Shown here piece by piece: positions 5,048 through 28,293 of a stretch of 36,645 nt of DNA. Under the pieces are notes generated by a model. It did not search any database and was not told the origin of the DNA. It saw only the letters and a program-made list of their open reading frames with translations. The translations under genes were made by a program, and so were the position numbers. Positions within the stretch are counted from its first letter, which is position 1, and every line of letters begins with the position of its first letter. Source of the stretch: Methanobacteriota archaeon (GTDB taxonomy: Archaea; Thermoplasmatota; Poseidoniia; Poseidoniales; Thalassarchaeaceae); contig PBFP01000024.1 of assembly GCA_002718695.1 (NCBI GenBank), positions 1 through 36,645 of the forward strand, in the 5' to 3' direction.

Positions 5048-7528
5048 TTGAACGGTCCCAAGATTTCTGATAAGCGTTGGAGCGTCGATCTCGAAAAACG
5101 CATCCAAGATCAACATTTTAACGATGGAACCTACAATGACAGGTATAGATTCGACCCCAATAGCGATCGGGAGATTTTCATTATCGATACCCCTCCACCT
5201 TATCCCAGTGGGACGTGGCACATTGGTGCAGTGGCTCAATACAGCATGATTGACGTAATTGCCCGTAGTCAGAGACTATTGGGAAAAGAAGTAAGGTTTC
5301 CTTGGGGCGTAGACAGGAACGGAATAAATATTGAATTTACAGTTGAGAAGAAGACTGGCAAAAAAATGCGCAGCTACGAAAGAGCAGAATTCATTGACCT
5401 ATGCAAGGAAACAATTGAAAGCTACACCGAAGAAATGAGAGAGACAGCAAAAAGAGTGGGACTCTCTTGCGATTATGAAAATGAATACCTCACTGATTCT
5501 CCTGATTATAGAGCCGTTTCACAGTCAATTTTTGTTGAATTATTCAAGCGAGGCGACATTATTGAAGATCTTCGACCAAACATATACGATCCGGTAGAGG
5601 GGACTACAATTGCTGACGCCGAGGTGCAACGAATAAACAGAAACACTTTGCTTTGCAATGTAATTTGGACTACAGAGGACGGCGAAGAAATTTCAATTTC
5701 TACCACAAGACCGGAATTAATTTGCGCTTGTGGCGTTGTAGTCGTACACCCCGATGATCACCGATATTCTCATCTCATTGGCAAGAGCGTTAAATTGCCA
5801 CTACCTGTAAGTGGCAGAGATGATTTTGTCCAAATCCAGGCGCATCCTTCTGTAAAGATGGATTTCGGCTCCGGCGTTCTAATGGTTTGCTCATTTGGAG
5901 ATCAAAATGATGTTTCTATTTTCAGGGAGCTTTCAATTAGACCGTTCGTTGCAATTGACTTAGATGGACGAATGACAAATGTCTCTGGTCCACTTTCGGG
6001 CATGAAGGTCGTTGAAGCCCGAAAAAATGCGATTGAAACACTTCAAAAAATCGGCAAGATCGATTCAATTGAGGAAAGAACGCAGGAAATTCCAGTTAGT
6101 GAAAGAGGTGGTAACCCGATTGAAATAATCCTATTGAAGGAATGGTATGTTCGCCAGACCCATGTATTAGGTAGATTATCGGAGCTCTCTGATAAAAGTC
6201 GTTTCATACCCGAGCGGAACCGACAGTTCCTACATGATTGGATGGATGGAGTCTCTATCGACTGGCCCATTAGCAGGAGAAGATGGTACCATACTGAAGT
6301 TCCAATATGGTATTCCGCGGACGGTACAAATATTGTTGTACCGCCAAAAGGAGTTTATGTCCAACCATGGCGTGAGTCCCCTCCAAAAGGATCGGAAGTA
6401 ATTGATAGAGAGACCAAGGAAATCATCGGCGACTATGAAAATCTAAGAGGGCAACTCGGAAATTTAATTGGAGAAGAAAAGGTATTTGATACCTGGATGG
6501 ACTCTTCAAATTCTAATCTTTATGTTTCTGGATATCTAAATCAGCCTGAGCTTTTTGTTAGGGCCTTTCCTACATCAATAAGGCCTCAGGGAAAGGAGAT
6601 TGTTCGAACATGGCTATATTATTCTCTATTAAAGAGCGCATTATTATTGGATAGTCCAGGGTTCCAGAATATTTGGATCGATGGATTGGGCATGGACCCT
6701 TGGGGCCGAAAGATGTCAAAATCACTTGGAAACGGTATTGACGCAGACTCTGTTTTGGAATGCGGTGCAGGAGGAAAGACCGGGTCTTGGAAAATCAAAG
6801 GAGCTAAAGGAAAACAAGTCACACTAAAAGCAAACAAAATTGGCAGTGAGTGTTTTAGGCTTTGGAAGGCATGTGATGCGCAAGTAGGAGACGACTTCCA
6901 CATTAATCCAGAGGAGATTGAAACCAAGTATTATGGAGTTTTGACAAAAATCTTCAATATTGCTAGGTTTGCAAGTCAGTTTGATGCGCCAGACGATCTG
7001 GAAACTCCACCAGTAATAGAAAAAGAGGATGTGTGGATATTATCTGAATTCGAATCAACCCTTGCTACAGTTGAGCAGTCATGGGAAAATATCGATATAT
7101 ATTCTGCCGCCCAATCAATCAAAAATTTCGGAACTGGAATATTTCCGAGTCACTGGATGGAGATGTCGAAAACTAGGCTATACGATGGGAACTCGTCTGC
7201 AACTTGGACAATTCATAGAATTGTGAGGGACCTGTTGAGTGCGTTTTCACCAATATGTCCATTCTTTACACATTATCTTTCTAGTACGTTATATGGTTTC
7301 AGTGCTGTAGATATCAGAGAATTTCCAAGATTGCCAAATGGTTGCGGGAACGATGAATTCGACTCAATGAGATCATTGACAAAAGCGCTGGTCAAATTTA
7401 ATTCAGATATATGGAAGGCAAAGAAAGAAGGAGGGGATTCACTAAAGTCTCCAATCAAGGGGATAGAGATACCGAAAGAGATCGGGCCTTTTCGAGATTC
7501 TCTAACTCAGATGCATAATATTTCTTGA
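5048..7528 (+). CDS. valS: Valyl-tRNA synthetase (archaeal type)
   Basis: A class I synthetase of 826 residues that charges tRNA-Val. Visible blocks are PPPYPSGTWHIGAVA (about residues 49-63, the HIGH-box region, read as HIGA here), the CP1 editing domain with STTRPELICACGVVVVHPDD and GSGVLMVCSFGD, then VFDTWMDSSNSN, IRPQGKEIVRTWLYY, and the KMSKS loop DPWGRKMSKSLGN near residue 555. A helical anticodon-binding domain follows. The IRPQGKEIVRTW block favours Val over Ile or Leu. The start is TTG: an in-frame TGA lies immediately before it, a GGTGG Shine-Dalgarno sits just upstream, and the nearby ATG at 5044 is out of frame. The end is one base from the convergent serA-like gene. Confidence 0.86.
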   Translation: MNGPKISDKRWSVDLEKRIQDQHFNDGTYNDRYRFDPNSDREIFIIDTPPPYPSGTWHIGAVAQYSMIDVIARSQRLLGKEVRFPWGVDRNGINIEFTVEKKTGKKMRSYERAEFIDLCKETIESYTEEMRETAKRVGLSCDYENEYLTDSPDYRAVSQSIFVELFKRGDIIEDLRPNIYDPVEGTTIADAEVQRINRNTLLCNVIWTTEDGEEISISTTRPELICACGVVVVHPDDHRYSHLIGKSVKLPLPVSGRDDFVQIQAHPSVKMDFGSGVLMVCSFGDQNDVSIFRELSIRPFVAIDLDGRMTNVSGPLSGMKVVEARKNAIETLQKIGKIDSIEERTQEIPVSERGGNPIEIILLKEWYVRQTHVLGRLSELSDKSRFIPERNRQFLHDWMDGVSIDWPISRRRWYHTEVPIWYSADGTNIVVPPKGVYVQPWRESPPKGSEVIDRETKEIIGDYENLRGQLGNLIGEEKVFDTWMDSSNSNLYVSGYLNQPELFVRAFPTSIRPQGKEIVRTWLYYSLLKSALLLDSPGFQNIWIDGLGMDPWGRKMSKSLGNGIDADSVLECGAGGKTGSWKIKGAKGKQVTLKANKIGSECFRLWKACDAQVGDDFHINPEEIETKYYGVLTKIFNIARFASQFDAPDDLETPPVIEKEDVWILSEFESTLATVEQSWENIDIYSAAQSIKNFGTGIFPSHWMEMSKTRLYDGNSSATWTIHRIVRDLLSAFSPICPFFTHYLSSTLYGFSAVDIREFPRLPNGCGNDEFDSMRSLTKALVKFNSDIWKAKKEGGDSLKSPIKGIEIPKEIGPFRDSLTQMHNIS

Positions 7529-7529
7529 A

Positions 7530-8504
7530 TTATTGAATATTATTTATTGACGTGCTCGTTACTCCTGTTTCGAAAAATTCCACAAGAAGCGAAGCCATCT
7601 CTAATCCAATTCTTGACTGAGCTTCTATTGTAGAAGCTGAAATATGCGGACTGCCATGAAAACCTTCATGGTCGATTAGACTCCCGTCATAGGGTTCGTT
7701 TTCAAATACGTCAAGTGCTAATGTACGAAGGGCCCCAGATTCCAATGCATGAGCCGCTGCATCCTCGTCAACAATCCCGCCCCTGGCACAACTAACGATA
7801 TGATTGCCACAATTTGAACCATCGAGGCCAATTCCAGGCATCATGGAGATTCTTTTCGAGTTTACCAAGTGTCTGGTTTCTTCCGTTAAATTACAGTGGA
7901 TGGATATATGTGTACATTTTTGGAAAATACCATCAATTTCATCATGCATTTGAATACTTCCTGGAGCTTCTGTAACATATGGGTCATAAACATGAATTTC
8001 CATGCCAAATTCAGTAGCAATGCGTGCTACTTCTCTCGCAATTCTTCCAAAACCGATTAATCCGAGTCTCTTGCCTCCGATCTCAGATCCTTTCAGATCC
8101 TTCTTTGCCCATTCACCTCTTCTTAGTGACCTATCGGCCGAGGAAATATTGTGAGTTGAAGAAAGAAGATGCCCAATAGTCATCTCAACCACGCTCCTTG
8201 TTGAGGATCCAGGAGTATTGCAAACTACAATCCCATGTTCGGTTGCTGCATCGATATCTATGTTATCGACGCCTACTCCTGCACGTCCGATGAAACGAAT
8301 CCCGCCGTCTTTAGTTACCGATGCACTAATCAGTTCTGCACAGAGTTTGGTAGCACTTCGAATAACAACAGCATCGAAAATTGCAAGTGAACCATCCAAT
8401 ATCTCTTCAAAAGTGTGATGTCTGAGCTCTAATTCATGGCCCGCTGACTCAAGAAACGCTATTGTTTTCTCATCCATTCCATCTGTAACAGCTATTCGTC
8501 CCAT
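7530..8504 (-). CDS. serA: D-3-phosphoglycerate dehydrogenase-like D-2-hydroxyacid dehydrogenase (short form)
   Basis: A 324-residue NAD-dependent D-2-hydroxyacid dehydrogenase. Landmarks: RAGVGVDNIDIDAATEHGI and NTPGSSTRSVVEM in the first lobe, the Rossmann glycine motif GLIGFGRIA, the catalytic Arg in SCARGGIVDE, a Glu in DVFENEPY and the catalytic His in GSPHISAST. The sequence is closest to SerA, the first step of serine synthesis. It stops right after the catalytic lobes and lacks the C-terminal ACT (and ASB) domains of the roughly 525-residue SerA proteins, so feedback inhibition by serine through ACT is not expected. Start chosen at ATG 8504, where MGRIAVTDGMD begins the fold; an in-frame ATG at 8531 exists. 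Another hydroxyacid substrate remains possible. Confidence 0.82.
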   Translation of the reverse strand: MGRIAVTDGMDEKTIAFLESAGHELELRHHTFEEILDGSLAIFDAVVIRSATKLCAELISASVTKDGGIRFIGRAGVGVDNIDIDAATEHGIVVCNTPGSSTRSVVEMTIGHLLSSTHNISSADRSLRRGEWAKKDLKGSEIGGKRLGLIGFGRIAREVARIATEFGMEIHVYDPYVTEAPGSIQMHDEIDGIFQKCTHISIHCNLTEETRHLVNSKRISMMPGIGLDGSNCGNHIVSCARGGIVDEDAAAHALESGALRTLALDVFENEPYDGSLIDHEGFHGSPHISASTIEAQSRIGLEMASLLVEFFETGVTSTSINNIQ

Positions 8505-8594
8505 ATTTTCTACCCCTGTATTCAACTGCATGAATATTGTGAATGCTTTGTCCGTAGAATTGAAATCATCTACCCCCTATTGGAGTTCGATAGA

Positions 8595-9188
8595 ATGGGT
8601 CTCGAATTGCCACAACTAAACTATGATTATGATGCCTTGGAGCCGTACATTGATGCCGAAACTATGGAATTACATCACTCAAAGCACCATGCGGCGTATA
8701 CTGCAAAATTGAATGCTGCTATTGATGGCACTGAATTAGATAATTTGACCATCGAGGAGATCATGGTCAACGGGTTTGAAAATGCTGCAGTCAGAAACAA
8801 TGGCGGGGGCTACTGGAACCATTCCCTGTTTTGGAATACTATGAGCCCAAACGGTGGCGGTGAACCAAGTGGCACGCTAGCAAATGCCATTATGGACAAA
8901 TTCGGCTCATTTGAAGGCATGAAAGAAGAGTTCTCCAACGCCGCAATGACTCGGTTCGGTAGTGGTTGGGCTTGGCTATGTGTGTGTGCGGGGGAATTAT
9001 GCATTTGTTCAACTCCGAATCAAGATAACCCATTGATGCTCGGGGAAGGAGTTCCAATATTGGGACTTGATGTATGGGAGCACGCGTACTACAAGAAATT
9101 CGGTCCAGCTAGGTCAGACTACATAGAATCGTGGTGGAATGTAGTTGACTGGGTACGAGTATCGGAGAACTTCGAAAACGCAATTTAA
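8595..9188 (+). CDS. sodA: Superoxide dismutase, Fe/Mn family, Mn-type residues
   Basis: This enzyme dismutates superoxide to oxygen and hydrogen peroxide. The N-terminal helix pair reads LPQLNYDYDALEPYID and TMELHHSKHHAAY (first His ligand). GGYWNHSLFW holds the second His. The C-terminal domain has the ligands Asp and His in LDVWEHAYY, then IESWWNVVDW. The Gly-Gly before WNHSLFW and the Gln in TPNQDNPLM are the pair typical of Mn-dependent rather than Fe-dependent members, although cambialistic use is possible. The ATG at 8595 gives the standard short N-terminus; an in-frame TTG at 8580 would add five residues. GGAG lies nine bases upstream of the ATG. The divergent serA-like gene starts about 90 bases away. 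Its presence indicates an aerobic lifestyle. Confidence 0.93.
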   Translation: MGLELPQLNYDYDALEPYIDAETMELHHSKHHAAYTAKLNAAIDGTELDNLTIEEIMVNGFENAAVRNNGGGYWNHSLFWNTMSPNGGGEPSGTLANAIMDKFGSFEGMKEEFSNAAMTRFGSGWAWLCVCAGELCICSTPNQDNPLMLGEGVPILGLDVWEHAYYKKFGPARSDYIESWWNVVDWVRVSENFENAI

Positions 9189-9246
9189 GCTCATTGAAGT
9201 ATAATATAAACCGCTTAATTATTGGCTATAATCGCTACCCCGTTAC

Positions 9247-10320
9247 GTGGTCGATGACTTCGAGGCAGTACTAACTTCGATCTTGATTCTTGCTTCACCT
9301 GTATTTTTCGCATTGCCTGTATCATTTGCTTGGCGGTGGTGGGTCGGGATAGAACCAGAGCATGAGCACTATAGGGAGAAAGTTCGTAGGGTCTTAGACT
9401 CAGGAATGCCACTCATTAGGTATAGATCGGAACTGGACGCTCAAGCGAGGAAAGTACACCTAACTTCCGATCGTCAAGCGAGGATAGAGTCAGACCTTCT
9501 ACACAAACTTAGATTACAGCATTTTCTACTTTTTCCAAGTTTGATACTATGGCCCTTAGTCGGAATTTTTGCCGCTCTAATCACCATCCCAATGATGCCG
9601 CTTCTTCGACTCCTAGAATGGATTCTTATTGACAAGAAGGTACTTTCGGGTGTCGCATCAATTATCCAAAGGTATACTCGTTGGGAGATTATTGGCATAC
9701 CTAGACTAGATGCCGGGGCAAAAGAGTTCGATAAAGTGCTAGCATCAATACATCGGATGCCAACTACCGTTTTTCTAGGTTTATTTGCTTACCTCATTGT
9801 TTCATATTTTCCAATGAGCTCTTCAAGAGTTCTATTGATGAGTGCATTAGTATACATTATTTTAGTTTCTGCAATTTCAGTAATCAGGGCTGCAACTGAA
9901 AGCACTTTGACATTTGCCGATCCAACAAATAGGACGATCATGCCCATGGACTCATATGTAGATGAGAAGCTTGGTCCGTGGGTAGGAGTGGGGCTTATCT
10001 TCCTTTTATCACGCCAATTAATGTACGGTTCGAAGATTCGCACTGGTGAGTTGCTGATAGATCCTATTCCATTTTCAATCAGTGTCCTGATTGTCCTATA
10101 CACTGCAACAATTATTGGAATCTCTGTAGAAATTGTATTCTTTAGAAATAGGGGAAATTCTGTAAGAAGAACATTCCAATCACAAATGGTTGAAATCTTC
10201 AACCCTATGGTATATCTTTTCAATAGACATCATGGGTCACTGAGGCTTATTCCTCTGATGTCTTTGTCCGAATGGGTAGACTCAGATGAGAATTTCGAAG
10301 TAGCTTTCAGGAATCATTGA
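9247..10320 (+). CDS. Multi-pass membrane protein of unknown function
   Basis: No family is recognised. The 357-residue product has about six hydrophobic segments: one at residues 9-29, a long block near 90-120 (FPSLILWPLVGIFAALITIP), paired segments around 172-210, and two more after an acidic and polar loop (FLLSRQLM and FSISVLIVLYTATIIGIS). A cytoplasmic-looking charged stretch lies between the first two (EHYREKVRRVLDSG). The start is GTG at 9247. No Shine-Dalgarno is evident, but an AT-rich TATA-like element (about 9202-9218) lies 30-45 bases upstream, so the mRNA may be nearly leaderless. The 3' end overlaps the convergent ygfZ-like gene by 14 bases. Confidence 0.7.
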   Translation: MVDDFEAVLTSILILASPVFFALPVSFAWRWWVGIEPEHEHYREKVRRVLDSGMPLIRYRSELDAQARKVHLTSDRQARIESDLLHKLRLQHFLLFPSLILWPLVGIFAALITIPMMPLLRLLEWILIDKKVLSGVASIIQRYTRWEIIGIPRLDAGAKEFDKVLASIHRMPTTVFLGLFAYLIVSYFPMSSSRVLLMSALVYIILVSAISVIRAATESTLTFADPTNRTIMPMDSYVDEKLGPWVGVGLIFLLSRQLMYGSKIRTGELLIDPIPFSISVLIVLYTATIIGISVEIVFFRNRGNSVRRTFQSQMVEIFNPMVYLFNRHHGSLRLIPLMSLSEWVDSDENFEVAFRNH

Positions 10321-22094: not shown

Positions 22095-22865
22095 TTATAT
22101 TATCCGTCCCTCCATCCCTCCGGCAATCTCTATGATTTGACCTGTAATGTGTCCCGCAGTAGCATTAGACGAAAGCATTACCACAGCCCTAGCTACATCG
22201 TCGGGTGTTGCAAATTTCTTGAGGGCCATAGTTGATTGCGCTCGTCCGATTGAGGATTCTTTGGGGGGCTCAATTTCCTTCTTCTTTGTGATTGTCCAAC
22301 CAGGGGCAACAGCATTTACACGTACATTTCCAATTTTGGCAACGTCGTTCTTTAGTGTGAGAAGCAGCCCTGATGTAATGGCTCCCTTTGCAGTAGCATA
22401 ATCGGAGTGTCCAGCCTCACCATAAACTCCAGCAGTCGAACCTACAAGAACCAAGGATCCGGATCTTGCTACTGAAGCATGCTCAAGGAAAGCTCTAGAG
22501 GTATTTACGGCCACTCCTAAGTTTGAGGATATGGTCGACTCCCAACGTTCGTCATCAATCTCCCAGAATGACAGTGAACGCGAGGGGTAGTGTCCTGAGT
22601 TTGCAACGCAAATGTCCAAACCTCCAACTTTAGAAACGATATTAGAAATCATTTTCCTTGCCTCTGAAGGAATGCGTAAATCGGCATTAACAGTGAACCC
22701 TCCTATCTCAGAAGCAAGTTTTTCAGCATCATTCTCAGAAGTATGGTAGTGTATTGCAACAATGGCACCTTCTGCTGACAAGTGCCTGCATATTGACTGG
22801 CCTATGCCCCCAGCTCCGCCTGTGACTAGTGCTACCTTACCTTCCATCTCCGTATCCATGAACAT
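22095..22865 (-). CDS. Short-chain dehydrogenase/reductase (FabG-like)
   Basis: A classical SDR of 256 residues. The NAD(P)-binding motif VALVTGGAGGIGQSICRHL is at residues 10-28, NSGHYPS (the NAG-like motif) near 87, catalytic Ser in VGSTAGVYGEAGH, and the YATAK active-site Tyr/Lys. The C-terminal part reads RVNAVAPGWTITKK and SNATAGHITGQIIEIAGGM, close to 3-oxoacyl reductases. The exact substrate is unknown, since archaea lack a standard FAS cycle. Start ATG 22865 or ATG 22859. It sits between queD and the SPFH gene on the same strand, with an intergenic spacer of about 60 bases on the queD side. Confidence 0.88.
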   Translation of the reverse strand: MFMDTEMEGKVALVTGGAGGIGQSICRHLSAEGAIVAIHYHTSENDAEKLASEIGGFTVNADLRIPSEARKMISNIVSKVGGLDICVANSGHYPSRSLSFWEIDDERWESTISSNLGVAVNTSRAFLEHASVARSGSLVLVGSTAGVYGEAGHSDYATAKGAITSGLLLTLKNDVAKIGNVRVNAVAPGWTITKKKEIEPPKESSIGRAQSTMALKKFATPDDVARAVVMLSSNATAGHITGQIIEIAGGMEGRII

Positions 22866-22928
22866 TGAGATCGATCTGTGCTAATAATTGCGTCCTATGA
22901 TCAAATCATTGCATAATATTTCCAAACT

Positions 22929-23378
22929 TTAGGGTTTCCAAGTAGCCCAAGATTTCGGAGTCTCCCTGACATGAAATGCGGAAAGACGTAATGAGTTCCC
23001 ATATGCAGATTTAATGTGCGGACTTACTCGCTCGAAAGCCCATTTAGCTAAATTTTCAGCTGTAGGAATAAATGGAACTAAGACAGTTCTGTGATTATTT
23101 CCTAAATGCGATAGTGCTTCAATAGCAAGGGCATCATTTTCGTAAACTATGAATGCGTGATCTACAACGTCATGGATATGCTTGGTTAGTATTTCGGAAA
23201 CATCTGAGAAATCTATCAACATACCTTCATCAGAAACGTTCGGCTTCTCGACAATATCCCCCTCAATCTCAACTTCCCATCTATATCTGTGTCCATGCAT
23301 ATTCCTACATTTACTCTTGTGATTAGGGACTCTGTGTCCAGTGTCTGTCTCCACCCATCTCCGGATACTAGTCGTCAT
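22929..23378 (-). CDS. queD: 6-carboxytetrahydropterin synthase QueD
   Basis: A 149-residue PTPS-family enzyme that converts 7,8-dihydroneopterin triphosphate to 6-carboxytetrahydropterin, the second step of preQ0 synthesis. The zinc His ligands and catalytic Cys are in TDTGHRVPNHKSKCRNMHGHRYRWEV (CxxxHGH). LIDFSDVSEILTKHIHDVVDHAF and the PTAENLAKWAFERV helix follow. ATG 23378 begins MTTSIRRWVETDTGH, the standard N-terminus, overlapping the 3' end of msrB by 11 bases; the upstream ATG at 23492 lies inside msrB and is unlikely. It is the last gene of the preQ0 operon. Confidence 0.92.
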   Translation of the reverse strand: MTTSIRRWVETDTGHRVPNHKSKCRNMHGHRYRWEVEIEGDIVEKPNVSDEGMLIDFSDVSEILTKHIHDVVDHAFIVYENDALAIEALSHLGNNHRTVLVPFIPTAENLAKWAFERVSPHIKSAYGNSLRLSAFHVRETPKSWATWKP

Positions 23379-23793
23379 TATTTTCCCCCTGTACGAAGTC
23401 AATGCTAGCCGAGTTGATACAATACCTTTCACCGCCAAATTGTAATGGTCCGTCATCGAAAACGTGTCCCAGATGTGCATCACAAGATCCACAACGAACT
23501 TCGACTCTTAGCATTCTGAAAGAATTGTCTTCAAGACGAATAATTCCTGCATCTGGGTGTTCTGTATGAAATGCAGGCCACCCGCAATTTGAATGATATT
23601 TCATTTCTGAAGTAAACAGAATGTTACCACAGCAAATGCATAGGTATTTTCCTTCTCTTTCCTCCATGTAATATATCCCAGAGTTAGGCGGTTCTGTTCC
23701 GGACTCTCTTGTCACATGATACTGTAGTCTAGTTAGCCTTTCTCTCCACTCTCTATCCCTTTCTGGGTTAAATCGGGGCATATTCTCCTTCAT
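23368..23793 (-). CDS. msrB: Peptide-methionine (R)-S-oxide reductase MsrB
   Basis: A 141-residue methionine sulfoxide reductase that repairs the R-epimer in oxidised proteins. The structural zinc is held by CICCGN and CGSCDAH, giving two CxxC pairs. The substrate pocket is in SNCGWPAFH, and the catalytic Cys in GGERYCINSASIDF. The ATG start overlaps the queC stop as ATGA, and the stop overlaps the queD start. It is therefore embedded, and translationally coupled, inside the preQ0 operon, an association with no obvious metabolic basis. Confidence 0.94.
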   Translation of the reverse strand: MKENMPRFNPERDREWRERLTRLQYHVTRESGTEPPNSGIYYMEEREGKYLCICCGNILFTSEMKYHSNCGWPAFHTEHPDAGIIRLEDNSFRMLRVEVRCGSCDAHLGHVFDDGPLQFGGERYCINSASIDFVQGENNDD

Positions 23794-24572
23794 ATTCCTA
23801 CCTCGAAATTTTTCTGTGTTAATATTGCCGAAGAAAGGGCATTCTCCCAGCCCCCTATGTATTCAACAGGATCTACCCGTCCAATAGTATGGAAAGCCAG
23901 TATCCTCTCAACGTCAGCTCCAGATTTACCTGAACTACGTCCTTGGGAATCGGGGTTATACGAAGTGTTAGTGTTTGCAAAAACAATGTCGAATTCTAGA
24001 TCGAGTTTCTTAATTGACTCAATCGCATCAACAAGAATTCTTGATTTATCCCATTGAATAAATGGAAGATGGAATGAAACTTTCTCAGAGCCCCAGTTTC
24101 CGATTGAAAATGCCCTCTCCAGAGATGTGTAGAACTCCGGCCTGCAATCAGGATATATTGCATGATCACCACTATGTACTCCAAGTGCAATAGAGACATT
24201 GGCGGATTCCTTAGAAGAGATGCTTAGTGCCTGGGCGTAAATTATCGAGCTGAAAATTGCGTTTCTGTTCGGAACCACAGTCTGCCTCATTTGATCGGAC
24301 TCATAATGGCCTTCAGGCATATTCATTTCATCGGAAATTAACGCTGAATTGAGAGATTTCATTGCAGGTTTTAGATCAATAACGTGGTGGTCAACTGATA
24401 TTCCATTGTTTTCTAGATACTCAATATTTGCTTTGGCCCTATCTATCTCAATTGAGTGTTTTTGCCCATAATCAAACGTTAGACAAGTGGTTTTGAAATT
24501 TTTACTTAACAACCTCATCAGCAGTGCAGTGCTGTCCATTCCTCCTGAAAGTGACATGACTGCCCTTCTCAT
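23790..24572 (-). CDS. queC: 7-cyano-7-deazaguanine (preQ0) synthase QueC, lacking the zinc-site cysteines
   Basis: A 260-residue PP-loop ATPase that converts 7-carboxy-7-deazaguanine to preQ0. The pyrophosphate-binding SGGMDSTALL lies at residues 9-18; TFDYGQKHSIEIDRAK, VPNRNAIFSSIIYA, and GVHSGDHAIYPDCRPEFY match QueC closely. In typical QueC the C-terminal segment carries four zinc-binding cysteines (CY...CGxCxxC). Here the same spacing reads TSYNPDSQGRSSGKSGAD, with Ser204, Ser214, Ser217 and Asp220 at the four positions. The start ATG 24572 forms an ATGA overlap with the queE stop; the upstream ATG at 24614 would overlap queE by 46 bases. Its place between queE and queD supports a preQ0 role despite the missing site. 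Confidence 0.88.
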   Translation of the reverse strand: MRRAVMSLSGGMDSTALLMRLLSKNFKTTCLTFDYGQKHSIEIDRAKANIEYLENNGISVDHHVIDLKPAMKSLNSALISDEMNMPEGHYESDQMRQTVVPNRNAIFSSIIYAQALSISSKESANVSIALGVHSGDHAIYPDCRPEFYTSLERAFSIGNWGSEKVSFHLPFIQWDKSRILVDAIESIKKLDLEFDIVFANTNTSYNPDSQGRSSGKSGADVERILAFHTIGRVDPVEYIGGWENALSSAILTQKNFEVGI

Positions 24573-25165
24573 AGAATACCCATCCATTTTTGAGTCTGTA
24601 GACTTAGTCTCCATCCGGGATTATTCTTTACCAGTTTCTCAACAATCTTGAATGACGCACCGTTTTCCTCTATCGATTCATTTTCCATGTAGCATGGTTG
24701 GATGTAATGATGCTCAAATCCTAACTTCAATCCGTCGTAGATTGATAAATCTTGACCGCAGTATACAACTTTCAACTCGTCACCAGAACGTTGCTTTATT
24801 GCAACATTGGGGTAAATTTGGTCCTTTGGACTAACACATATCCAGTCAATTATTGGGTCGATTGGAATTGTGCCGTTTGTCTCAATCGATAGGGATATTC
24901 CATGCTGCTTCAATCGTCGTCCTATTGATGACAAGTCCTGTAAAGCAGGCTCTCCACCAGTAAATATCACTCTGTCACAGTCATAAGATAGTACCTTGTC
25001 AACAATTTCATTGATCCCCAACTCTTCGAATGTCATGAATTCTGTATCGCACCATTCACAACGGAGATTACAATTTCCGAATCTAACAAACACATGTGGC
25101 AAGCCAGTGTGAAATCCTTCTCCCTGAACGGAATGGAAAATTTCAACAATTGGATATTTCAGCAT
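24569..25165 (-). CDS. queE: 7-carboxy-7-deazaguanine synthase QueE (radical SAM)
   Basis: A 198-residue radical SAM enzyme that performs the ring contraction of 6-carboxytetrahydropterin. The cluster motif is NCNLRCEWCDTEF (Cys32, Cys36, Cys39; CxxxCxxC). IFHSVQGEGFHTGLPHVFVRFG precedes it, as in all QueE; FTGGEPALQ and SIETNGTIPI are the SAM-binding and substrate loops. The ATG start is preceded by GGTGG. It follows folE by 11 bases and couples to queC through an ATGA overlap. Confidence 0.94.
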   Translation of the reverse strand: MLKYPIVEIFHSVQGEGFHTGLPHVFVRFGNCNLRCEWCDTEFMTFEELGINEIVDKVLSYDCDRVIFTGGEPALQDLSSIGRRLKQHGISLSIETNGTIPIDPIIDWICVSPKDQIYPNVAIKQRSGDELKVVYCGQDLSIYDGLKLGFEHHYIQPCYMENESIEENGASFKIVEKLVKNNPGWRLSLQTQKWMGIL

Positions 25166-25176
25166 TTTTCGCCACC

Positions 25177-25755
25177 TTATTTTTGAGGTCGTATTAATTG
25201 TAAGAGTTCTGCACGGGCTTCTGATTTCTTAAAGAAAACACCCTTCATTGAGCTAGTGGTCATTATTGCTTCCTGTTTCTTTACCCCCCTACACTTCATG
25301 CAGCCATGCTGAGCATCGAGAATTACAGCACACCCTAATGGGTTGAGATTTTCTTCTAGGTCATTTGCAATTGCAATTGTGATTCTCTCTTGATTCTGCA
25401 ACCTCTTTGAATGCATGTCAAGAAGACGAGCAAGTTTGCTGATCCCTACGATTCTGTCAACTGGTATGTATGCAATATGGGCTCGACCAGAAAAGGGCTG
25501 AAGATGGTGCTCACAAGTACTCTGAAACTCAATATCACGTAGTAGTACAATGCCATCATATCCCTCTGCATTGAATGTTGAGTCTAGAATTTCTTTGGCA
25601 TCCATAGAGTAACCAGAGAATATTTCTTCATATGATTCGATGACCCTTTCAGGAGTCTTAACTAGCCCCTCACGCAGTTCGTCATCACAATTCTCGATGT
25701 ATCGAACTATTTGTTCTACGGCCATAATTGCATGTTTTCTACTTACTGTTTTCAT
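25177..25755 (-). CDS. folE: GTP cyclohydrolase I FolE (type IA)
   Basis: A 192-residue enzyme that converts GTP to 7,8-dihydroneopterin triphosphate. Zn ligands lie in STCEHHLQPFSG and HGCMKCRGVKK; GLVKTPERVIESYEEIFSGY and VGISKLARLLDMHSKRLQNQERIT are typical. Most archaea use MptA or the type IB enzyme, so a bacterial-style FolE is a marker of this lineage's borrowed pterin chemistry. It feeds QueD here and could also supply folate, consistent with the folate-linked cyclodeaminase at the end of the window. The ATG is immediately adjacent to the stop of the preceding RHH gene. Confidence 0.94.
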   Translation of the reverse strand: MKTVSRKHAIMAVEQIVRYIENCDDELREGLVKTPERVIESYEEIFSGYSMDAKEILDSTFNAEGYDGIVLLRDIEFQSTCEHHLQPFSGRAHIAYIPVDRIVGISKLARLLDMHSKRLQNQERITIAIANDLEENLNPLGCAVILDAQHGCMKCRGVKKQEAIMTTSSMKGVFFKKSEARAELLQLIRPQK

Positions 25756-25920
25756 TCAGATCCTTCCGTGTCTTGAGTCAATTTCGTCCAGTTGATCTAG
25801 CATTTTCCTGCATGCAGTTCTAATTGCATCCGCCAAACTCACAAACTTTTTGCTATCGCCAACATGACTTTTCAAATCATGAACAATCTCACTTGGCATA
25901 TCAAGGCTAATTTTTGGCAT
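25756..25920 (-). CDS. Ribbon-helix-helix (CopG/Arc-like) small regulator at head of preQ0 operon
   Basis: A 54-residue frame. The start reads PKISLDMPSEIVHDL, the beta-strand plus first helix of a ribbon-helix-helix fold, followed by a KKFVSLADAIRTACRKML second helix with the usual S/A-x-A-I-R pattern. These proteins form dimers that bind short palindromes in the major groove through the strand (here Lys3, Ser5, Asp7). Its stop directly abuts the folE ATG, so it is almost certainly the first gene of the folE-queE-queC-msrB-queD operon and a candidate autoregulator. A palindrome lies 28-47 bases upstream of its ATG. Confidence 0.72.
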   Translation of the reverse strand: MPKISLDMPSEIVHDLKSHVGDSKKFVSLADAIRTACRKMLDQLDEIDSRHGRI

Positions 25921-25947
25921 ATAATGCCGAACAAGTTGTAAAAAATA

Positions 25948-25967
25948 AGTATTACTGTGGTAATACT
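25948..25967. promoter_or_regulatory. Perfect inverted repeat upstream of RHH-preQ0 operon (operator or terminator)
   Basis: AGTATTAC-TGTG-GTAATACT is a perfect 8-base inverted repeat with a 4-base spacer; a third copy of the half-site, AGTATTA, follows at 25970-25976. Reading on the minus strand, the repeat is followed by the T-rich run CTTATTTTTTAC, and the RHH gene begins 28 bases beyond. That position overlaps where the TATA box (TTATTTTTTA) and BRE of the operon would lie. Two readings are possible: operator for the RHH protein, or a terminator hairpin plus U-tract for the 99-residue protein gene that ends at 25974. Confidence 0.55.
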
Positions 25968-25973
25968 GGAGTA

Positions 25974-26273
25974 TTATCTTTTACTTTCCACCATTTTATC
26001 TAGGTCAGGATGGGTGTTATTTAGTGAAATCGCCCTTTGTTTTAGGCTCTGGAACTGCTCATTGGCTTCGTCATCTGATATTCCCTGACTGATCAAGTTT
26101 AGTATCAACGAGAGACCGCCATGTACGGCACCGGCCTCCAAGAATGCATCATTTGTTATATCGCCAGTAGCCCTTAGAACCTCAAGAGTATCACGCAGAT
26201 AATCGATTTCTTCTTGAATAGCATTAGTATTTGAGACTCCTACAGAGTCGAACTTGTCCAACGAACTAATCAT
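25974..26273 (-). CDS. Small helical protein, unknown function
   Basis: A 99-residue protein with no recognised family. Sequence features: EEIDYLRDTLEVLRATGDI (amphipathic helix, possible coiled coil), EAGAVHGGLSLILNLISQG (hydrophobic patch, not long enough for a confident TM), and DDEANEQFQSLKQRA. No cysteines are present. The ATG start at 26273 follows the epimerase stop by 34 bases, so it may end the kae1-to-epimerase unit. Confidence 0.6.
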   Translation of the reverse strand: MISSLDKFDSVGVSNTNAIQEEIDYLRDTLEVLRATGDITNDAFLEAGAVHGGLSLILNLISQGISDDEANEQFQSLKQRAISLNNTHPDLDKMVESKR

Positions 26274-26307
26274 GACAATGCGAATAATGATTCCTTTTTG
26301 ATGGTTA

Positions 26308-26715
26308 TCATGTGATTGATTCTACAAGTTCAATGAGGACCCCACCGCTAGAATAAGGATGGATAAATGCTATTCTATGCCCGCCAGAGCCAATTAGCGG
26401 CTCTTCGTTGATCATTCTTACTCCAATACCAATCAACTCTTCTATTTTAGCTGAAATATCTGTCACATTTATTGCAATCTGCTGTACTCCAGGACCTCTT
26501 TTTGATATGAATCTAGCAATGGGGGAGTCTTCCCCAAGAGGCTCCAATAATTCTATGGCAGGCGCCTCCTTTCCTTTCATGTATCGAATTCTAACTCCCT
26601 GCTCTTCTACCGTGTCATCGTGACTCCTTGAGTAACCCAGTAAGTTCCAAAAATCTTCAGCATTATCTAGTGAATTTGTTGCAATACCGATATGATTGAT
26701 GGATCCAGAAGACAT
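26308..26715 (-). CDS. mce: Methylmalonyl-CoA epimerase (VOC/glyoxalase superfamily)
   Basis: A 135-residue VOC-fold enzyme that interconverts (R)- and (S)-methylmalonyl-CoA in propionate use. Features: INHIGIATNSLDNAEDFWNLLGY (His8, first metal ligand), ELLEPLGEDSPIARFISKRGPG, and VLIELVES with Glu129 as last ligand. The second-half metal ligand region is normally HHIA; here it reads VQQIAINV, with Gln78-Gln79 in place of His-His. The rest of the fold is intact. It starts right after the mutase stop (TGAATG), and this coupling supports the assignment. Confidence 0.86.
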   Translation of the reverse strand: MSSGSINHIGIATNSLDNAEDFWNLLGYSRSHDDTVEEQGVRIRYMKGKEAPAIELLEPLGEDSPIARFISKRGPGVQQIAINVTDISAKIEELIGIGVRMINEEPLIGSGGHRIAFIHPYSSGGVLIELVESIT

Positions 26716-28293
26716 TCAAACACCACTGGGGGCAATCCACGTTCCAAACTCTTCCCTCATTACTTTGTTGACCTCCCCTACTGTAGCATCAACCTTAACA
26801 GCCGAAATTATTGATTCCATTACATTAGTTCCGTCCCTACAGCAATTTCTTAGCCGTGAAAGCGCGTTTTCAATAGATTGCTTATCTCTTGACTCTTTGA
26901 AAGAAGAAAGACTCGAGACAATTTCACGTTCGGCAGTTGGATCCAATACTAAACCTTCGAATTCAGGGGAGTCGTTTTCAACATGTGAGTTTACTCCAAT
27001 TATACGTTCTTCACCACTCTCGACGCTTTTGAGATGCTCCCATGCGCTTTCATGGATCATCTTCTGCTGGAATCCAGATTTTACGCACTCCATAGAGCCC
27101 CCTAGTGAGTCGATTTTTTCAATTAATATATTTGATTCACTAATCATTTCATTTGTTAGCGATTCTATCGATTCGGAACCTCCAAGAGGATCAACAAAAC
27201 GTGAAATTCCGGTTTCCTCAGCAATGATTTGCTGAGTCCTGAGAGCAAGCTCCACTGAGTTTTCAGTAGGCAAACCCAATGCTTCGTCATAGCTATTCGT
27301 GTGTAATGACTGAGTACCTCCAAAAACTGCGGATAATGCTTGGAACGCAACTCTGATAGCATTGTTAATCGGTTGCTGTGCGGTTAATGTTACTCCCGAA
27401 GTCTGCGTGTGAAACCTGAGTTGTGAAGACTTTTTGTTATTGGGGGAGAATTCCCTTTCAACCAACTCGTACCAAAGATGCCTCGCAGCCCTGAATTTTG
27501 CTACTTCTTCAATGAAGTCATTGTGACAGGCGAAGAAGAATGACATCCTTGGTGCGAAATCGTCTATCGACATGCCGCTTTCAATTGCTTTCCGAGTATA
27601 ATATAGTGCATTTGATAGGGTTAAAGCGATCTCTTGCGATGCAGAACAGCCTGCCTCACGCATATGATATCCGCTAACAGAAATAGTGTTCCACTTAGGA
27701 GTGCAATCCTTCGACCACGACATTAGATCTGTAGTTAATCGGATTGAATGTTCGGGCGGATATATATAGAGTCCCCTCGAAATATACTCCTTCAGTATGT
27801 CATTCTGGACCGTACCTGATAAGTCGGCCCTATCAATTCCCTTCTCATCAGAGACAGCCACATATAGGGCCAAAAGTGTAGTTGCCGGGGCATTTATTGT
27901 CATCGATGTTGAAATTTTGCCTAAGTCTATCGAGTCGAATAGCAATCTCATATCTTGTATGGAGTCTATTGCGACTCCAACTTTCCCAACCTCTCCGATC
28001 GATAGCGGGTCGTCTGAGTCAATACCAAGTTGCGTGGGGAGATCGAATGCAACAGAAATTCCTGTCTGACCACTATCCAGGAGTTTTCTAAACCTTTGAT
28101 TTGTCTTTCTTGGCGAGGAAAACCCGGCATATTGCCTCATTGTCCATATTTTATCTTTGTACATCCCAGGATGTATCCCCCTACGATAAGGGGGATTCCC
28201 CGCCGATCCAATGTCACCAATCCAATCAGTGTTTGATTCATTCACCACATGGGTCCCAACAGGTCTCATAAGAAGAACCATTCTCAGATTCAT
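26716..28293 (-). CDS. mcmA: Methylmalonyl-CoA mutase, large catalytic subunit (no B12 domain)
   Basis: A 525-residue acyl-CoA mutase large subunit that binds the CoA ester in a TIM barrel. Landmarks: WTMRQYAGFSSPRKTNQRFRKLL, DSGQTGISVAFDLPTQLGIDSDD, KISTSMTINAPATTLLALYVAV, NTISVSGYHMREAGCSASQEIALTLSNA, RFHTQTSGVTLTAQQP and GGTQSLHTNSYDEALGLPTE. It ends without the roughly 130-residue cobalamin-binding domain, so the B12 subunit must be encoded elsewhere, as in other archaea. It begins by an ATGA overlap with the upstream basic protein gene and abuts the epimerase downstream. Together these suggest propionyl-CoA conversion to succinyl-CoA, for odd-chain or branched amino-acid carbon. Confidence 0.93.
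   Translation of the reverse strand: MNLRMVLLMRPVGTHVVNESNTDWIGDIGSAGNPPYRRGIHPGMYKDKIWTMRQYAGFSSPRKTNQRFRKLLDSGQTGISVAFDLPTQLGIDSDDPLSIGEVGKVGVAIDSIQDMRLLFDSIDLGKISTSMTINAPATTLLALYVAVSDEKGIDRADLSGTVQNDILKEYISRGLYIYPPEHSIRLTTDLMSWSKDCTPKWNTISVSGYHMREAGCSASQEIALTLSNALYYTRKAIESGMSIDDFAPRMSFFFACHNDFIEEVAKFRAARHLWYELVEREFSPNNKKSSQLRFHTQTSGVTLTAQQPINNAIRVAFQALSAVFGGTQSLHTNSYDEALGLPTENSVELALRTQQIIAEETGISRFVDPLGGSESIESLTNEMISESNILIEKIDSLGGSMECVKSGFQQKMIHESAWEHLKSVESGEERIIGVNSHVENDSPEFEGLVLDPTAEREIVSSLSSFKESRDKQSIENALSRLRNCCRDGTNVMESIISAVKVDATVGEVNKVMREEFGTWIAPSGV

Follow-up and report, generated by a model that had tools for sequence, protein, structure and literature searches.

We identified a tandem array of palindromic DNA boxes at the promoter of an operon for the synthesis of preQ0, the precursor of archaeosine, in a Poseidoniales genome. 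The first gene of this operon encodes a 54-residue ribbon-helix-helix (RHH) protein. From comparison of the sequences, the architecture of the array and its linkage to these genes are firm, and a similar arrangement seems to recur in haloarchaea. We consider it likely that this protein regulates preQ0 synthesis locally and is dedicated to that task, most probably as an autorepressor. The DNA analysed (the window) is a stretch of 36,645 nucleotides. An earlier note on it had pointed to the short gene and to an inverted repeat upstream; that observation is real and larger than first described.

The operon, its first protein and the promoter array

The gene order on the minus strand of the window is RHH-folE-queE-queC-msrB-queD (Table 1). 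The earlier note had described a short gene adjoining folE, and folE indeed starts at the base that follows the RHH open reading frame. We compared 111 RHH loci, a sample that includes the best 80 of 178 loci and holds some genomes twice, from two collections. A folE gene follows on the same strand in all 111 of these loci, queE is present in 108 and queC in 107; msrB was matched in 55 and queD in 62, many loci ending before these genes are reached. The msrB gene lies between queC and queD inside the preQ0 operon in many relatives as well. Of 40 genomes searched, the host included, 36 have an archaeosine-type tRNA-guanine transglycosylase above cut-off; together with the operon genes, this indicates that the route from preQ0 to archaeosine is present. 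One contig labelled Neomarinimicrobiota (SCKS01000100.1) carries an archaeal RHH-folE-queE-queC run and is probably mis-binned or mislabelled.

Table 1. Genes and promoter elements of the preQ0 operon, in window positions.
Feature	Position	Strand	Basis or remark
Upstream 99-aa gene, outside the system	25974..26273	-	without Pfam match; replaced by other genes in many relatives
Box 1, GATAATACT	25970..25978	-	shares bases with the TAA stop codon of the 99-aa gene
Box 2, AGTATTACC	25959..25967	-	sequence; promoter alignment
Box 3, AGTAATACT	25948..25956	-	merges with BRE/TATA
A/T-rich TATA-like element, 19-28 nt before ATG	25939..25948	-	conserved T/A-rich columns right after box 3; putative role
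Small RHH (CopG/MetJ/Arc-like) gene, 54 aa, proposed operon repressor	25756..25920	-	ORF; homologs in relatives
folE, GTP cyclohydrolase I	25177..25755	-	PF01227, E 1.1e-62
queE, 7-carboxy-7-deazaguanine synthase	24569..25165	-	PF04055; top NCBIfam matches are QueE models, below cut-off
queC, preQ0 synthase (listed ORF; start may be internal)	23790..24614	-	PF06508, E 1.5e-41
msrB, methionine sulfoxide reductase B	23368..23793	-	PF01641, E 1.1e-44
queD, 6-carboxytetrahydropterin synthase (listed ORF; start may be internal)	22929..23492	-	PF01242, E 2.1e-27

Ten residues of the RHH protein (H19, G21, D22, C37, D42, D45, D48, R50, G52 and R53) are invariant in 87 of 87 proteins. The RHH features seen earlier in the protein find some support in its family: four of four haloarchaeal homologs, described below, pass Pfam RHH_1 (22.3-26.7 bits against a cut-off of 20.5), while the window protein itself falls below it. 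Its own matches, of the DUF2767 and Acb2_Tad1_hairpin type, lie below cut-off, and RHH_1 is not among them. Weak Pfam matches of its relatives (E ≤ 0.1, 51 proteins) are to DUF2767 (39), Acb2_Tad1_hairpin (21) and RHH_1 (3). An AlphaFold monomer model (pLDDT 81) has helices at residues 10-20 and 29-50 and no beta strand, and a fold search with this strandless model gave nothing significant. A sequence search against solved structures returned chance jacalin-like matches and nothing else, and a search for viral or phage relatives found none. A second RHH protein, CdrS-like at its N-terminus and extended at its C-terminus, is also encoded by the host and many relatives (L202:1273-1674; G000:C5:78113-78229). 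Its gene is divergent from a neighbour that looks HD-domain-like by eye.

The inverted repeat upstream of the RHH gene, AGTATTACTGTGGTAATACT, lies at 25948-25967, 28-47 bases before the ATG, and is the sole exact match of AGTATTAC-N(0-12)-GTAATACT in the host assembly (1.36 Mb, 74% complete). The sequence first read as an 8-base inverted repeat is present, but its true unit is a tandem 9-bp palindrome (consensus AGTAWTACT), three of which follow one another at a pitch of 11 bp. What had been taken for a third half-site is likewise a further repeat unit, in fact a full third box in exact 11-bp register (box 1 in Table 1). Box 3 merges into the presumed BRE/TATA, in keeping with the overlap suggested earlier, although the promoter role of that element is itself putative. 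The position of the TATA-like stretch, about 27 nt before the ATG, is the one expected of a leaderless transcript from general archaeal promoter geometry, and suggests such a transcript here.

Removal of 24 duplicates from the 111 loci (the sample with the best 80 of 178) left 87 distinct loci for comparison of upstream DNA; one with too little upstream sequence was dropped, and 86 promoters were aligned. The alignment is ungapped by construction, set on the three-box pattern with its 11-bp pitch. At up to one mismatch, RRTAWTAYY matches box 1 in 74 of the 86 promoters, box 2 in 80 and box 3 in 66. Three boxes were counted at this threshold in 49 promoters, four in 11, two in 16 and one in 10. 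All 86 have the T and A with which the core of box 1 opens, and the array starts exactly 56 nt from the ATG in 55 of them (range 52-59).

The earlier note had proposed looking for the palindrome upstream of RHH-folE-que operons in relatives, and there it is conserved: the three-box pattern occurs at up to three mismatches in 74 of 86 promoters (the worst has eight). Across 4,300 shuffled promoters, which form an independent control, the best three-box match never had fewer than six mismatches. Box matches fall in register in 220 of 258 cases and in at most 23 of 258 at other shifts, a control that is anchored on the alignment and depends on it. Since the promoters and genomes are kin, these counts are not independent samples. 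The array is a specific, repeated element at the RHH gene's own promoter that overlaps the putative core promoter elements, as expected for an autoregulated operon repressor.

Distribution of the RHH gene and of the array

We detected the RHH gene in 53 of 60 genomes (host included), among them all 22 with a completeness of 90% or more and a contamination of 5% or less. A phylum-wide sample yielded it in 107 of 389 genomes, all from the host's order save one, which belongs to another family of the class. A search for folE in 25 RHH-less genomes (G401 left out) gave no match in 23; the other two (G004 and G177) have folE at a contig edge, the match starting at contig base 24 and base 7, respectively. 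None of the 25 therefore had folE with sequenced upstream DNA and yet lacked the RHH gene. Several assemblies break within or beside the operon (G004:C102, G177:C30, G028:C341, G197:C14 and G295:C3) and queC is also absent in 15 of 17 rechecked RHH-less genomes, so apparent absences of the operon may be assembly gaps.

In family f3 of the same class (seven genomes), one genome (G197) has both the RHH gene and queC, one (G062) has queC without the RHH gene, and five have neither. Other Thermoplasmatota have queC in seven of seven genomes tested, each without this RHH gene. The queC loci of these genomes (about 3.6 kb, which may miss the operon start) contained no high-scoring array on a matrix scale where haloarchaeal sites reach just 4-23.

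At detectable strength, the array is near-unique to the RHH promoter. We ran three patterns over the 60 whole genomes. The first matched 9 sites (5 genomes), the second 70 (43 genomes) and the third 26 (22 genomes); without exception (9/9, 70/70 and 26/26) these sites fall within 100 nt upstream of an RHH gene, and reversed-pattern controls gave 0, 1 and 1 matches. Thus, no other target site was found by the three patterns in the 60 genomes, a result that applies to array-strength sites and not to weaker or single-box targets. Phylum-wide (389 genomes), we identified 110 sites in 64 genomes, of which 103 (61 genomes) are at RHH promoters, against four matches of the reversed pattern. Sensitivity is limited, as 46 of the 107 RHH genomes fail this three-box pattern at up to three mismatches.

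The seven sites away from RHH promoters fall in three genomes (G078, G125 and G170), each without this RHH gene. The best of them, in G078 (L222:1768-2039), has two mismatches and a matrix score of 38.6, against a median of 37.8 for a set of RHH loci (L002-L031). Its three boxes stand between a TATA-like stretch and the start of a 79-aa gene, the first box adjoining the start codon. The 79-aa protein has an RHH-like look (RHH_1 14.8 bits against a cut-off of 20.5) and is below Pfam cut-offs. G078 belongs to another Thermoplasmatota family, and its 79-aa protein is no close relative of the window RHH protein. This case suggests, on the sequence, that AGTAWTACT-type boxes may be read more widely among archaeal RHH autoregulators.

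Sites with three mismatches occur in G125 (matrix score 31.8) and G170 (34.3), with no evident RHH gene near either array within the stretches examined. The G125 three-box-like repeat is present on two contigs near their ends (L223, the end of G125:C11, and G125:C268:80-114) and is possibly a repeated element. In G170, an ORF of 121 aa begins about 20 bases downstream of the repeat (L224, around 1951-1981).

Haloarchaeal homologs and boxes

We identified four homologs of the RHH protein by tblastn of plasmids with a consensus query. All are haloarchaeal, 63-66% identical to the query and identical to the window protein at 30-32 of 53 residues; these four records alone carried the gene among the plasmid sequences searched. 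They are annotated merely as 'ribbon-helix-helix domain-containing protein'. Three of the four have queD-queE-queC close by: in Halococcus dombrowskii the homolog stands immediately upstream of queD, and in Halorubrum ezzemoulense and Haloplanus it lies downstream of queC. The fourth has no such genes nearby in the stretch examined. The C-terminal tail (residues 41-53) is the best conserved of four parts compared between the window protein and the haloarchaeal homologs, with 10-11 of 13 residues identical against 5-6 of 13 for residues 28-40. H19 and H51 are common to the window protein and all four homologs. C37 is missing from the homologs, so a cysteine-based metal site is unlikely across the family.

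The haloarchaeal test set comprised 15 plasmid queD loci of 26 records, the other 11 being Halobacterium with the same 69.0% identity. We scanned 14 of these loci, some of them close kin (L221 was left out as a near-duplicate of L218), with a matrix for a symmetrical box that was built solely from the 86 Poseidoniales/MGIII promoters and applied as two boxes 11 bp apart. Out of about 6,700-10,100 positions per locus, the best site within -45 to +5 of the queD start is top-ranked in 10 of the 14 loci and second in the other four. With a three-box matrix, the queD-start site comes first in 11 of 14 loci and among the top three in all 14. A simpler pattern places the queD site first (ties included) in 8 of 15 loci and is weakest in L216, where 106 sites are better. 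The box includes the ATG in 9 of the 14 sites, a triplet that is fixed for other reasons.

The RHH gene's own start scores less well in haloarchaea, with two-box ranks of 2, 3, 24 and 2. In L206 and L209, the top two two-box sites are at the queD start and then at the start of the RHH gene itself. The RHH gene is absent from the stretch examined in 12 of the 15 haloarchaeal queD loci. The placement of the homologs near queD-queE-queC and the transfer of the matrix to queD starts support the suggestion, first made from the window, that an RHH protein may control preQ0 synthesis.

Three of the haloarchaeal loci with boxes near the queD start (L213, L215 and L216) are queD-queE-folE-queC clusters beside long genes annotated as 'queuine tRNA-ribosyltransferase'. 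A fourth (L217), also with boxes near the queD start, has queD alone beside such a gene. We take these clusters to resemble Dpd-type 7-deazaguanine DNA modification.

A putative autorepressor, its alternatives and known systems

Several features of the array would fit repression by the RHH protein. First, each 9-bp AGTAWTACT box may hold one RHH dimer, and a pitch of 11 bp (about one helical turn) would set the dimers side by side on the same face of the DNA. Second, a filled row in Poseidoniales would end in the BRE/TATA and exclude TFB and TBP, and a row in haloarchaea would lie close to the queD and RHH start codons and block initiation. Finally, the RHH gene is the first of its operon, so that repression would act as negative feedback by which the output of the operon is set. 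The LDxLDxIDxRHGR motif, conserved at the C-terminus, is a candidate for contacts between dimers or for the site where an effector, for example preQ0, would be sensed. Under this proposal it would be the 54-aa protein that binds the boxes, binding would repress, transcription would be leaderless and any effector is conjectural. Several counts speak against autorepression: the 10 of 86 promoters with one box, the 46 of 107 genomes that fail the pattern, the arrays of RHH-less G125 and G170, the lower ranks of the RHH gene's own start in haloarchaea, and the 12 of 15 haloarchaeal queD loci with no RHH gene in the stretch examined.

The RHH protein might instead bind the array and activate the operon from just upstream of the BRE, where boxes 1 and 2 lie. 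CdrS would be the precedent: according to the accessible text of PMC8406309, it may activate ftsZ1 in Haloferax volcanii, and 15 of 18 sites there are 41-110 nt upstream of the transcription start. We regard activation as unlikely. Box 3 merges with the BRE/TATA in Poseidoniales, and the best sites in the 14 haloarchaeal loci are close to the start codon (nine include it); both positions fit blocked initiation better than recruitment, and repression is favoured for this reason.

It is less probable still that another DNA-binding protein reads the boxes while the 54-aa RHH protein does something else. A candidate exists in the second RHH gene with its CdrS-like N-terminus (G000:C5:78113-78229), and the box resembles that reported for aCcr1. 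Yet nearly every array site found lies at an RHH promoter, and it would be less parsimonious to assume a separate regulator with a single strong target that is itself the gene of a regulator. Moreover, the top two sites of L206 and L209 are queD and the RHH gene itself.

The repeat in the window comes after the upstream stop codon, is foldable and has a U-rich stretch behind it, so the RNA it encodes might be a hairpin or terminator of the upstream gene (z -2.6; 4 of 200 shuffles fold equally well). The earlier note had named this outcome, an element kept solely as a hairpin after the upstream gene, as one that would undo its proposal. We rejected it as the main explanation and give it very little credence. 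The best upstream ORF, chosen mechanically, is divergent in 35 of 84 loci and codirectional in 49 (several different genes), three further loci being too short to judge, and the element is kept where that gene is divergent. The central W base of box 1 varies independently of that of box 2, without the covariation expected of a hairpin stem (table 18, 25, 17, 26; p = 1.0), and the 11-bp pitch and near-fixed spacing to the downstream ATG also argue for a DNA element. A hairpin could add to termination in the host genome.

Bacterial preQ1 and preQ0 genes are often under riboswitches; a riboswitch was rejected here, as the window gave 0 Rfam matches up to E = 1 over 22500-26800. An array that positions archaeal chromatin proteins, or a chance A/T-rich repeat, would account for the base composition and the near-helical period but is hardly credible for an element that is near-unique per genome, palindromic in its specificity, beyond the reach of shuffles and able to lend its matrix to Halobacteria.

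Beyond repression of the local operon, a broader idea is tentative and, taken whole, rather doubtful: that an ancient minimal RHH family of Poseidoniia and Halobacteria senses preQ0 or an intermediate through the LDxLDxIDxRHGR tail and, by way of tandem 11-bp boxes, gates the genes for the archaeosine precursor, those in 7-deazaguanine clusters on haloarchaeal plasmids among them, as a protein counterpart of the preQ1 riboswitch. If repression by the RHH protein holds, a protein of 54-60 aa with a simple, predictable operator would control the pathway in two archaeal classes. The plasmid RHH family would thereby gain a function and a connection to the RHH proteins that regulate cell division in archaea. 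Since haloarchaea are amenable to culture and modification in the laboratory, RHH control is directly testable.

The literature searched, mainly open-access and as titles and the starts of abstracts, yielded no regulator of archaeosine or preQ0 genes, and control of archaeosine-precursor synthesis in archaea seems not to have been described so far. The RHH protein and the tandem operator are known kinds of part. What appears to be new is the link to synthesis of the archaeosine precursor, an operator of several boxes at 11-bp pitch, and the recurrence in two archaeal classes.

MetJ and P22 Arc are RHH proteins that occupy promoters as adjacent dimers on repeats, either palindromic boxes or half-sites. 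MetJ exerts feedback on a biosynthetic pathway and binds SAM, and its met boxes are 8 bp long and end to end, whereas the window array has a pitch of 11 bp and its effector is only conjectural. The window protein has no detectable sequence relation to solved structures. The preQ1 riboswitch provides feedback on genes for 7-deazaguanine synthesis, as we propose for the window RHH protein, but it is an RNA element and the window element behaves as DNA boxes.

Among archaeal proteins, aCcr1 is also a small RHH protein, and its box in Sulfolobales is reportedly A(T/G)G(A)TA(A)TTACN, a 9-bp sequence that resembles AGTATTACN. We know of no tandem 11-bp pitch for aCcr1. Its model NF053762 is not among the profile matches of the window protein and scores 17.6-19.8 bits with the haloarchaeal homologs against a cut-off of 60, so membership was rejected. 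The targets of aCcr1 differ in being cell-cycle genes: the accessible parts of PMC12284271 and PMC12796447 describe it as a cell-cycle repressor of Sulfolobales that represses cdvA.

The nearest named protein model to the window protein is that of CdrS (NF058555), described in the accessible text of PMC7439475 and PMC8406309 as a short haloarchaeal RHH regulator of ftsZ2. Like the window protein, CdrS consists of the RHH alone, is of similar size and is encoded directly upstream of linked genes. CdrS precedes ftsZ2, whereas the window RHH gene precedes folE and the que genes (folE in 111 of 111 loci, a sample including the best 80 of 178). Of the 53 residues of the window protein compared, the model aligns with 4-45 and does not reach the terminal RHGR. 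Membership was rejected at 16.8 bits for the window protein and 29.2-34.2 for the haloarchaeal homologs against a cut-off of 100, and NF058555 was above cut-off in none of 21 genomes searched. SegB, an RHH protein of Sulfolobales, shares with the window protein palindromic sites near its own promoter, and the accessible part of PMC12284271 assigns it to chromosome segregation, with TCTAGA S TCTAGA sites dispersed across the chromosome.
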